Shown: positions 12,421-15,504 of the stretch, piece by piece
How positions within the stretch are numbered: the stretch's first letter is position 1
Layout of the letters: every line of letters begins with the position of its first letter
Assembly (NCBI GenBank): GCA_009780955.1
Contig: WQZB01000009.1
Location: 1 to 64,000 of the forward strand
DNA length: 64,000 bases
Direction: 5' to 3'
Origin: Polyangiaceae bacterium
GTDB lineage: Bacteria > Myxococcota_A > Polyangia > Polyangiales > Polyangiaceae
The notes under the pieces: generated by a model
The model's database searches: none
What the model was told of the DNA's origin: nothing
The model's input: the letters and a program-made list of their open reading frames with translations, nothing else
Made by a program: the position numbers and the translations under genes

Positions 12421-13074
12421 TCATGGGCGCATCAGTCGAAGATCGACGGGCGCGTTGACCACGGCGTTCGAAAACGCGATGTCTATGCTGTCGGCTTTTG
12501 CTTCGAGCAAACGCGCGGACAGCGGCACAACGAGACCTTTATCGAGTGTTATCGAAAAGCCGCGCACGCTTGCTGTTTTGTCTTTTGCTGCGCCTGCAAT
12601 TTCAATGTCGTTTGCGCTCCGCGAACCGGAAAGCTCGTAGCGCTCTCGGAGCGAGCCAAGGTCGCCGCCGAGAAGGGCACGCATATCGGCAAGCCCCCGC
12701 GCAACGCGATCGCCGCCGGCGGGCAAGGTCGCTTTTGATGAGCGCGTGCGATACGACAAGCCTTCGGGCCCAACCCAGTAGACAACATCGTCGGGTGGCA
12801 AAAGTTCCCACCTTAGCCTATTGGGCGTAACCGTCAAAAGCTTGCCTGTCGACTTCACACTAGTTAAAAGGAGCGCCATTTTTCGCTCTTGCGTGAAATC
12901 GGCTTTTAGCGTTTTGACCGATGCGCGTGCCAAAGCAATGTCGGAGATTGCGCGATCGAGCTTGGGGCCTTCGAGTTTTTCGCGAACGGGGTCGCTCCCC
13001 AACGCGCGATTCGTTGCGAACCAAGCCATGGCGCCCATGGTGCCGAAAGTGAACGATCGACGTCCGCATTTCAT
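12421..13074 (-). CDS. LolA-like outer-membrane lipoprotein carrier family protein
   Basis: The 217-residue protein resembles LolA-type periplasmic carriers that shuttle acylated cargo. It shows a signal region with a twin-Arg-like start (GRRSFTFGTMGAMAWF), KTLKADFTQERKMALL, SVKSTGKLLTVTPNRLRWELL, and a C-terminal part with FSITLDKGLVVPLSARL. The ATG overlaps the stop of the upstream hydrolase as ATGA, which decides the start and implies coupling; longer in-frame readings run into that gene. Its operon partners, a GT2 enzyme and a C45-type hydrolase, hint that the cargo may be a glycolipid or acylated product rather than general lipoproteins. That last point is inference. Confidence 0.75.
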   Translation of the reverse strand: MKCGRRSFTFGTMGAMAWFATNRALGSDPVREKLEGPKLDRAISDIALARASVKTLKADFTQERKMALLLTSVKSTGKLLTVTPNRLRWELLPPDDVVYWVGPEGLSYRTRSSKATLPAGGDRVARGLADMRALLGGDLGSLRERYELSGSRSANDIEIAGAAKDKTASVRGFSITLDKGLVVPLSARLLEAKADSIDIAFSNAVVNAPVDLRLMRP

Positions 13075-14687
13075 TGAGCTTGATCTCCTGAGATTTTTGG
13101 CGGCCATGGCTCTTCGCGACCGAACAGGGGACCACCTGCACGCGCGCGCCCTTCGGCGTAGCGTGAATCGCCGAGTACTTCGTCGGGGCCAATGGCGTCT
13201 TCGTTGGCGATTGGAGGACCGCCTGTGCTCGACACGATGGGCCCGAGCGCGATCTTCACGAAACGCCCTGAAAGATGAGGGCCTTCCGAGACCCAAAGGG
13301 TTTTTTCGGCGAGATCGAAGACAACGCCGTGGGTTGCAATGAGCGCGTCGATGCTGCGTCGATCGCCGATTTGGCATGCCACGCCGCCAGCGCATGCATG
13401 GTCGCGAAGCATGTGCACTGCATGCGCAACCGTGGCAGTTTTAGGCTCTACCTGGCCAAGCAGTTCGTCGATGCGCGCACGCCGTGCAAGCGAGGTTGTT
13501 GTTTGCATGACGCGAATGTTGCTTGGATCCGTGGCGAGAGGTCCCTCGAAGTGGTTTGTCACTGCAACGCGCGCGGGATCGGCGCTTTTGCGGACAAAGG
13601 CTTTTTCGCCCGGAGCTCGCTCGACGATCGCAAAATTTCCATTTTGGTCGCCAACGAAAACAAGATGCGAAACCATTACACTTTGCGCCGAGAGGATCGC
13701 AACGGCCTCCTTGGTGTCGCGGGCCTTCGAAAGCACTTCGCGCAGCGAGAACACGACGGGCATTCCCGTTGTCATTGGCTCTCTTGCGCGTGCTCCGTTG
13801 ACGGCAACGGCAACGCCCTCGGCATTCATCCCTGTGAACACACCAACGAGCCCTGGCCAAGCCACACTTGCAAATGGAATAAGCCCATTTTCGCGAACCA
13901 CAAAGACGGCCTTGTCGCGATCGAACACGTCGGCTGCTTCGAAGTCGAAGGCACGCGCAAAGAGCGGGTGGCCGCTGGCGGTTCGGGTCGGGCCGAGGCC
14001 GAACGCGCTGCAACCGTCGAGCTCGGGACCTGCCGGCGTGTCGTGAGCCGCCCTGATAGGACGGCTCAACGTGCTTGCGCCCGTACCAAGCAGTGGCGAA
14101 TGCTCAAAACTCAGCGCAATGTCGTAGAGCGCGTGCAATAGCACCATGCGCGAGTACGTTGCCATGTGCGCCGAATAGGGATCAGGCGAAAAGGCGAGCG
14201 CTCCGGCTGCGAGCTCGCGCTGTCTTGGCTCGGGAAAGCCGCTGGCCACGTGACGGTATCGAAATCGACCGACATCCAACATCAACGTGCGCAAGGGCCA
14301 GATGGGCACAAGTTGCTCGAAGCCTTCCCACAATACTTTTTCGTTTGCGATCATGTACTGTCGTACGAGCACCGCGTGCTGAGTTCCGATCTCTTCGGGC
14401 GTACCAGCAAGGCTCACCACACGAACGCCAGGGCCACCGCGAAGCCCGTAAAGCGTTGTCCATCCGTTGCCTGCGAAGCGAACGCCACCCTGCCCGGTTT
14501 TTGCGCTGATCGCGCTAATCGCGGCAATCGCGTTTGGCGCCACGGTTGGCGGTGTGATCGATGTCAAATGAACGATCGCGACGTGCGCGGCAACGGGGGT
14601 GAGCAGCAGAAGCCCCGCTATAACGAGTTTGTTTCGATGACGGCGGCCGAAGCCCCGCGCTCCGCCTTGCTGCGATTGCGAGCGCAC
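13071..14687 (-). CDS. C45-type (acyl-CoA:6-APA acyltransferase-like) Ntn hydrolase, membrane anchored
   Basis: The 538-residue protein has an N-terminal hydrophobic anchor (LVIAGLLLLTPVAAHVAIVHL). Its periplasmic domain resembles peptidase family C45 and related Ntn hydrolases. DGCSAFGLGP carries the probable nucleophile (Cys ~226), followed by LFARAFDFEA, VFTGMNAEGVAVAVNGARA, VSHLVFVGDQNG and RVAVTNHFEG. Such enzymes self-cleave before the Cys and then hydrolyse or form amide bonds to acyl groups. The start is GTG, one base after the stop of the GT2 gene, and the end overlaps the LolA-like gene, so all three are tightly coupled. A role in acyl or lipid processing fits this setting. Confidence 0.75.
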   Translation of the reverse strand: MRSQSQQGGARGFGRRHRNKLVIAGLLLLTPVAAHVAIVHLTSITPPTVAPNAIAAISAISAKTGQGGVRFAGNGWTTLYGLRGGPGVRVVSLAGTPEEIGTQHAVLVRQYMIANEKVLWEGFEQLVPIWPLRTLMLDVGRFRYRHVASGFPEPRQRELAAGALAFSPDPYSAHMATYSRMVLLHALYDIALSFEHSPLLGTGASTLSRPIRAAHDTPAGPELDGCSAFGLGPTRTASGHPLFARAFDFEAADVFDRDKAVFVVRENGLIPFASVAWPGLVGVFTGMNAEGVAVAVNGARAREPMTTGMPVVFSLREVLSKARDTKEAVAILSAQSVMVSHLVFVGDQNGNFAIVERAPGEKAFVRKSADPARVAVTNHFEGPLATDPSNIRVMQTTTSLARRARIDELLGQVEPKTATVAHAVHMLRDHACAGGVACQIGDRRSIDALIATHGVVFDLAEKTLWVSEGPHLSGRFVKIALGPIVSSTGGPPIANEDAIGPDEVLGDSRYAEGRARAGGPLFGREEPWPPKISGDQAQ

Positions 14688-14688
14688 G

Positions 14689-15504
14689 TCACGCTCCTAT
14701 TACCGTTCGCGCTCGCGTTCGCATTTTGCGCTCGCCAAGCGCGGTGACCACGGTGCAGACGATGCGCCATGGATCGCGCACGACGTGAAAGTGAGTGACG
14801 CGATCGGGCGGGTAAAGAACGCTTACGGGCTCTTCGACAATGGGAACGCCGCACCAAACGGCGCGAAGAAGCACTTCGGCCTCGAAATCGAACCCCTCGC
14901 CGCGTGCCCCCAGCGCCAGCGTTCGCTCGATGGGATAGCGGCGCAGACCGCACTGCGTGTCACAGAGGAGGCGGCCTGCGAAGCGCGAGATGAAGAAATT
15001 CGAGATGCCATTGGACATCTGGTTTTTCCTTGGTGCACCTGCGTGACGGAGATCGCGGATACCGAGCACGAGGCTTTGCGGATCGCTCGAAGCCATAAGC
15101 ACGCGCCGCGCCTGTTCGGCGGGGTGCTGCGCGTCGGCATCGACCGTGAGCGCAACGTGATGGCCGCGCGCGAGCGCCGTGGTGAAACCGGCGCGTAGAG
15201 CCGCGCCTTTGCCACGGTTTTTCCCATGCGAGATAAGCACGCAGCCGAGCTCGGCAGCGACTGCCGCGGTGGCGTCGCGCGAGCCATCGTCGACAACAAA
15301 AAGATTCGAGCCGAGCTCCGGGATTTGCGCACGCAAATCGTCAATCACCGTGCGAAGTGCTTTCTCGGCATTGTAAGCGGGAATGATCACGCACGCGCGC
15401 GCGAGCCACGAGCCGGCGGCCGCAGAGCGCCAAGCTTGCGAGCTTTCAGGCGCGTAGGCGCGAACATCGAACGGAGCGCAAGGTACATCGGTCATTGCCG
15501 CCAT
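14689..15504 (-). CDS. Family 2 glycosyltransferase
   Basis: The protein is a GT-A fold family 2 transferase. It shows ACVIIPAYNAEKALRTVIDDL, NLFVVDDGSRDAT (nucleotide binding), GKNRGKGAALRAGF, and VALTVDADAQHPAEQ, which has the metal-binding DxD. A later DTQCGLRRYPI and FDFEAEVLLRAVWCGVPIVEEPV resemble the dolichyl/undecaprenyl-phosphate mannose/glucose transferase group. No transmembrane tail is evident. Start candidates are ATGs at 15504 and 15495; a longer in-frame GTG/ATG further upstream would overlap the divergent ybeY start. It is the first gene of the GT2/C45/LolA-like unit. Confidence 0.85.
   Translation of the reverse strand: MAAMTDVPCAPFDVRAYAPESSQAWRSAAAGSWLARACVIIPAYNAEKALRTVIDDLRAQIPELGSNLFVVDDGSRDATAAVAAELGCVLISHGKNRGKGAALRAGFTTALARGHHVALTVDADAQHPAEQARRVLMASSDPQSLVLGIRDLRHAGAPRKNQMSNGISNFFISRFAGRLLCDTQCGLRRYPIERTLALGARGEGFDFEAEVLLRAVWCGVPIVEEPVSVLYPPDRVTHFHVVRDPWRIVCTVVTALGERKMRTRARTVIGA

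Follow-up and report, generated by a model that had tools for sequence, protein, structure and literature searches.

A coupled glycosyltransferase, C45-family enzyme and LolA-like carrier of Polyangiaceae as a probable terminal module of a dispersed aryl polyene/flexirubin-type lipid pathway

Three consecutive genes on the minus strand of the window (the whole stretch analysed here, 64,000 nucleotides of contig WQZB01000009.1 of a Polyangiaceae bacterium) encode a family 2 glycosyltransferase (GT2, 14689-15504), an N-terminal nucleophile enzyme of the C45/AAT family (C45, 13071-14687) and a LolA-like periplasmic carrier (12421-13074). They probably form a terminal module, for glycosylation, acyl transfer and export, of an outer-membrane lipid pathway of the aryl polyene/flexirubin type whose genes are dispersed. 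Membership in such a module is argued from fusion of the first two genes in relatives, from physical linkage in other phyla, from co-occurrence across genomes and from protein fold.

Coupling and conservation of the three genes

The GT2 enzyme (271 amino acids, predicted to be cytoplasmic) is counted from an ATG at 15504, neighbouring starts being possible, and is followed by the C45 enzyme (538 amino acids, predicted to be membrane-anchored with its catalytic domain outside the cytoplasm) and the carrier (217 amino acids). All three exceed the Pfam gathering scores of their families (GT2, PF00535, 8.7e-23; C45, PF03417, 7.6e-22; LolA, PF03548, 2e-9). A single base separates the stop codon of the GT2 gene (14689-14691) from the GTG start of the C45 gene (14685-14687), and the TGA of the C45 gene (13071-13073) overlaps the ATG of the carrier gene (13072-13074) as ATGA. 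These coordinates and scores agree with the original prediction, made from the sequence of the window, in the placing of the three genes, their spacing and their domains.

A Polyangiaceae metagenome-assembled genome (MAG; locus L071) encodes a C45 protein 73% identical to that of the window, followed in similarity by those of Labilithrix sp. and of Myxococcales MAGs. In a first set of 40 loci from relatives, tblastn found 32 with GT2 upstream of C45 and 24 in which LolA follows C45 directly. A second set, which overlaps the first, comprises 78 loci, 67 of them from near relatives (Myxococcota); the loci are not all independent genomes, since some come from one assembly, as L116 and L145 do. 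In 52 of the 67 near loci GT2 immediately precedes C45, the two being fused in three, and in the other 15, among which L116 starts within C45, it is absent from that place. In 28 of 49 unfused loci, the GT2 stop codon and the first start available to C45 share a four-base overlap; two of the fusions (L114 and L121) hold both Pfam domains in one open reading frame, and the third (L145) is a partial contig. Because of this adjacency, the four-base overlaps and the three fused reading frames, the GT2-C45 arrangement is not attributable to chance, and the fusions suggest that C45 acts on the product of GT2. LolA is found within 6 kb downstream of C45 in 33 of 64 tested loci and not in 31, the three fused loci being outside this test; in three Sorangium loci it lies about 3 kb from C45 with a kinase-like gene in between. 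Conservation of the trio, which the original prediction had proposed as a check, is thus observed.

In four loci of family f8 (L038, L041, L045 and L046), C45 has no neighbouring GT2, which is located on another contig of those genomes, and adjoins an isocitrate-dehydrogenase-like gene (named by eye). In one further genome (G109, L220:6230-7656), LolA comes directly after GT2, and C45 was not detected in the genome at the search threshold. The near-locus neighbours of the trio are mostly housekeeping genes (encoding YbeY, an HU-like protein, a primosomal protein, a P-type ATPase and others), and the trio was rejected as a self-contained pathway. Two genes downstream of LolA, encoding a GNAT protein (c8, in 13 of 41 sequences compared) and a 125-amino acid protein (c9, in 12 of 41), were considered as further members, and no pathway link was found for either.

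Relatives of the trio in aryl polyene-like clusters

Homologues of C45 sit within aryl polyene/flexirubin-like type II fatty acid synthase clusters of Verrucomicrobia, one planctomycete and some deltaproteobacteria. In four Verrucomicrobia loci (L137-L139 and L143), C45 homologues of approximately 30-33% identity have genes for a lysophospholipid acyltransferase (LPLAT) and a lipoprotein beside them; an acyl carrier protein (ACP), a ketosynthase-chain length factor (KS-CLF), a polysaccharide deacetylase and LolA are encoded in three of the four as well, FabZ is likewise present in three of the four, and FabD, FabG and a thioesterase are found in addition in L139 and L143. The planctomycete locus (L141) has ACP and KS-CLF; L131 and L132 have KS, FabZ-like and MMPL genes; L148 has an MMPL-like stretch, an ApeJ-like GT2, ACP and FabG; and L140 has MMPL, GT2 and a gene used as an AMP-ligase-like query. 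No such synthesis or export neighbours surround C45 in L134 and L146. In three Myxococcota loci (L096, L112 and L126), LPLAT is directly upstream of C45. Thus the acyl carrier and acyltransferase genes that the original prediction had suggested looking for near orthologues are present near some of them.

The other two members of the trio have relatives in the same systems. A profile of the GT2 family (47 sequences) matches E. coli ApeJ at 130.8 bits, compared with 45.1 for PgaC, in an alignment that spans the entire glycosyltransferase domain; the DADAQH motif of the window's GT2 (residues 122-127, 15124-15141) aligns with VDADGQH of ApeJ and is presumably the metal/sugar-nucleotide site, as in the GT2 family generally. 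The LolA-like carrier scores 37.9 bits against PF03548 (cut-off 23.6), and a profile of its family (34 sequences) matches the LolA proteins of the Verrucomicrobia clusters at 77-79 bits (one at 78.8); the LolA of L139 matches LolA2_flexi at 85.5 bits. The analogy with aryl polyene loci that had been drawn for the carrier is therefore made more specific by the preference of the GT2 profile for ApeJ and by the placing of C45 homologues within aryl polyene-like clusters.

PMC8253772 describes the aryl polyene genes of E. coli, with ApeJ as a proposed glycosyltransferase/acyltransferase and a proposed Lol-like export. The cluster of E. coli CFT073 (ApeA-R), as annotated there, resembles the genes considered here in an ApeJ-like glycosyltransferase domain, a LolA-like carrier, an MMPL exporter, a lysophospholipid acyltransferase, an ACP, a KS and a chain-length factor, but it is one contiguous cluster whereas the genes here are dispersed, and ApeJ joins a glycosyltransferase to an acyltransferase, while the GT2 here has as its neighbour or fusion partner C45, which does not appear among the annotated ApeA-R genes. 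PMC3992019 assigns flxP-U of the Chitinophaga pinensis flexirubin cluster to a deacetylase, an acyltransferase, LolA, a glycosyltransferase and an exporter, and in a figure legend of PMC5932025 the aryl polyene genes of Flavobacterium (F. johnsoniae) include a C45-type acyltransferase, GT2 and LolA. Compared by these descriptions, the legend gives as features shared with the genes here the C45-type acyltransferase, GT2, LolA, ACP, synthases, and lipid A-type and phospholipid/glycerol acyltransferases; the F. johnsoniae and C. pinensis genes are clustered, unlike here. The original prediction knew of no described pathway with this trio; because that legend lists all three of its members, the combination is not undescribed. 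The literature listings contained no paper on this trio in myxobacteria. According to PMC11821767, antiSMASH reports aryl polyene hits in certain Polyangiales; these hits may correspond to the KS operon described below.

Unlinked partner genes, co-occurrence and the export line

The source genome of the window (G000; 4.2 Mb, 112 contigs) does not have the single contiguous cluster that is a trait of aryl polyene and flexirubin pathways; the genes are on different contigs. Contig C15 encodes, in a row, an ACP, a KS-CLF fusion (P0004), a protein of a further family (P0006) and a second KS-CLF (P0005), and this row is repeated in most of the 20 relatives examined. P0004 shares 36% identity over 623 amino acids with the KS-CLF found at the C45 locus L138; an MMPL gene on contig C88 is 27% identical over 797 amino acids to the MMPL beside C45 in L131; and an LPLAT homologue is located on contig C20. 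Against the PRK models, the KS/CLF of this genome scores 291.8 bits (PRK09185, cut-off 407) and its ACP 60.9 bits (PRK09184, cut-off 70). A second type II set, consisting of ACP, KS, CLF and a BioF/serine-palmitoyltransferase-like enzyme, is present on contig C46 (L168:8676-13275).

Searches with seven genes, all in one set of 144 genomes of the order, found them in 54 (GT2, E ≤ 1e-55), 48 (C45, E ≤ 1e-55), 45 (KS-CLF, second half, E ≤ 1e-16), 51 (LPLAT, E ≤ 1e-23), 38 (MMPL, E ≤ 1e-40), 37 (LolA, profile score >185 bits) and 35 (P0006, all hits) genomes. All seven genes are present in 29 genomes and none in 89; 11 have only GT2, C45, KS-CLF and LPLAT, three have all but C45, and 12 show other patterns. 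Counted by genus (n = 70, any member sufficing), 42 have none, 16 have all, five have synthesis only and seven have other patterns. GT2 is present in 48/48 genomes with C45 and 45/45 with KS-CLF, and GT2, C45 and KS-CLF are jointly absent from 90 genomes.

LolA and MMPL are both present in 36 of the 144 genomes and both absent from 105, one alone being present in three; LolA, MMPL and P0006 are present or absent alike in almost all genomes and are jointly missing from the 11 synthesis-only genomes. The P0006 family (L167:5908-6603) has no Pfam or NCBIfam match, but its AlphaFold model (predicted local distance difference test score, pLDDT, 87.0) best matches LolB of Porphyromonas (Z 15.3, 3.6 Å, 199 residues), tied within 1 Z with a Vibrio lipoprotein-sorting domain and a DUF1329 protein and followed by LolA and LolB structures at Z 11-13.5, and a pattern search found a lipobox-like signal in 7 of 12 family members. 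ApeN of the E. coli cluster belongs to DUF3261; P0006, unrecognised by Pfam, was rejected as a homologue of ApeN/DUF3261 by sequence, and because hhalign gave a probability below 1 in the pairs tried and there is no Pfam hit, its likeness to LolB is one of fold. That LolA, MMPL and the LolB-fold protein are absent together suggests that the three form a dedicated lipid export line.

It is very improbable that the carrier of the trio instead duplicates the lipoprotein carrier of the ordinary Lol system, with which it shares the LolA family, the PF03548 score above cut-off, a LolB-fold partner and a detectable kinship to the genome's other LolA (48.6 bits by the family profile), since contig C8 encodes that separate and better-scoring LolA (86.4 versus 36.7 bits), LolA of the trio type makes up a separate class, found in 37 genomes and set apart by a clear gap in score (189.9 to 80 bits), and the trio-type LolA co-occurs with an MMPL gene, so that by co-occurrence its partner pump is MMPL and not LolCDE. 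The signal sequence of the window's carrier includes Arg5-Arg6 (13057-13062) in the Tat-like (twin-arginine) context GRRSFTFG, and RR-x-hydrophobic is found in 27 of the 34 family members; signals of the trio type are mostly Tat-like, unlike that of the genome's other LolA.

Several observations weigh against assigning the trio to an aryl polyene/flexirubin-type pathway. Physical linkage of the trio to a synthase was not found in the Myxococcota loci examined, and the two are megabases apart in genome G125, which is a single contig, and on contig C1 of G096. The carrier scores below cut-off against both the canonical LolA equivalog (TIGR00547, 26.5 bits, cut-off 112) and its best NCBIfam model (NF053544 LolA2_flexi, 47.3 bits, cut-off 125), and its relation to ApeL itself is weak because ApeL, at 31.5 bits, falls below the genome's other LolA in the family profile. 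No sequence similarity was detected between P0006 and either ApeN or the lipoprotein of the Verrucomicrobia clusters. C45 is missing from three genomes that keep the other six genes, and is therefore dispensable or replaceable there. The presence thresholds were picked by eye at gaps after the hit lists had been seen, and the genomes are related without correction for relatedness, so that P values, which assume independence, are descriptive only.

Some of these points would also fit an alternative in which the trio is a separate glycolipid or lipoprotein-modifying route that merely shares its phyletic history with the KS-CLF operon: the two loci are unlinked in Myxococcota, phylogeny confounds the profiles, and 15 of the 67 near loci have no GT2 beside C45. 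This alternative is considered improbable, since other phyla have C45 and KS-CLF in physical linkage, the 90 genomes noted above lack GT2, C45 and KS-CLF together, and a control CLF (contig C46), present in 79 of the same 144 genomes, has no positive association with the C45 system. Within family f1, the descriptive P value is 0.32 for the control and 1.5e-10 for C45 with KS-CLF, and across the whole order the control CLF is negatively associated with C45 (odds 0.26). General KS content was thereby rejected as the cause of the association.

The C45 enzyme and the proposed pathway

C45 exceeds the cut-offs of PF03417 (78.5 bits, cut-off 23.2) and NF040521 (159.6 bits, cut-off 85), and the best match of its AlphaFold model (pLDDT 86.6) is IAT, the acyl-CoA:isopenicillin N acyltransferase of Penicillium (2x1c; Z 36.6, root mean square deviation 2.8 Å, 338 residues, 18% identity), with which it shares the fold of the C45 autoproteolytic class and from which it differs in its membrane anchor and bacterial envelope setting as well as in the low identity. 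The human NAAA precursor and acid ceramidase match at Z 29.4 each with approximately 14% identity, and their mature beta chains align from Cys226. This residue (14010-14012), in the DGCSAFG motif already noted in the original prediction as the nucleophile, is the predicted autocatalytic N-terminal nucleophile, and its Gly-Cys is invariant in 25/25 aligned orthologues. Also invariant in the 25-row alignment are Arg245-X-X-Asp248 (13944-13955), aligned with the R..D of NAAA (GRNLDY), and Asn378 (TNHF, 13554-13556), aligned with TNHC of IAT and predicted to line the oxyanion hole. The membrane anchor that had been predicted for C45 corresponds to a helix of the model at residues 18-42 (14562-14636), preceded by basic residues, from which the topology is proposed. 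An insert of approximately 24 residues just ahead of the predicted self-cleavage site (14016-14087), shared among the 25 rows only with L031 (approximately 18 residues), coincides with a region of pLDDT below 50 (residues 201-220). By its model and alignment, C45 is likely to be an active, self-processing enzyme.

Sequence and fold do not separate a hydrolase from a transferase. The possibility that C45 is a lipid amidase or ceramidase-like hydrolase, stripping an N-acyl chain from a glycolipid or recycling lipids, is regarded as rather unlikely, although the catalytic Cys, Arg-X-X-Asp and Asn match those of NAAA, and both NAAA and acid ceramidase, which share the fold, are lysosomal hydrolases. 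The top fold match is an acyltransferase, although this does not settle the reaction, and the coupling and fusion to GT2 and the placing among synthesis genes favour a biosynthetic step, although a trimming step would fit as well. Transacylation appears more likely than hydrolysis.

From these lines of evidence we infer a topology, an order of steps, a product, an acceptor and a reaction for C45. The unlinked ACP and the two fused KS-CLF synthases of contig C15 would build an acyl chain, and the cytoplasmic GT2 would attach a sugar to an acceptor lipid. C45 would mature by self-cleavage at Cys226 and, held at the inner membrane by its anchor helix with the catalytic domain facing the periplasm, may then make or remodel an acyl linkage, either amide or ester, on the glycolipid. 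The MMPL pump of contig C88 would hand the product to the LolA-like carrier, which would deliver it at the outer membrane to the LolB-fold lipoprotein encoded on contig C15. The original proposal for the trio had been an acylated and glycosylated compound of the envelope, made by sugar transfer, an acyl reaction and periplasmic carriage; it fits these findings, except that the trio is no pathway alone, the chain-building, exporter and acyltransferase genes being unlinked to it.

More broadly, and tentatively, many Polyangia-type myxobacteria may have a complete aryl polyene-like outer-membrane glycolipid pathway that is unclustered, with at least seven genes at four places, in which a GT2-coupled periplasmic C45 transacylase of the N-terminal nucleophile type replaces the acyltransferase part of ApeJ, and an MMPL pump, a LolA exported mostly by the Tat route and a hitherto unnamed lipoprotein of LolB fold form a dedicated export line, which one genus group lacks while keeping synthesis. 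The GT2-C45 fusions make concrete the question of what C45 does in aryl polyene and flexirubin gene sets, and the pattern of co-occurrence supplies a defined list of genes for testing. The seven-gene set tends toward joint retention or joint loss across related soil bacteria, and since programs for finding gene clusters seek neighbouring genes, a widespread envelope lipid pathway would, if this is true, be only partly visible in Myxococcota.

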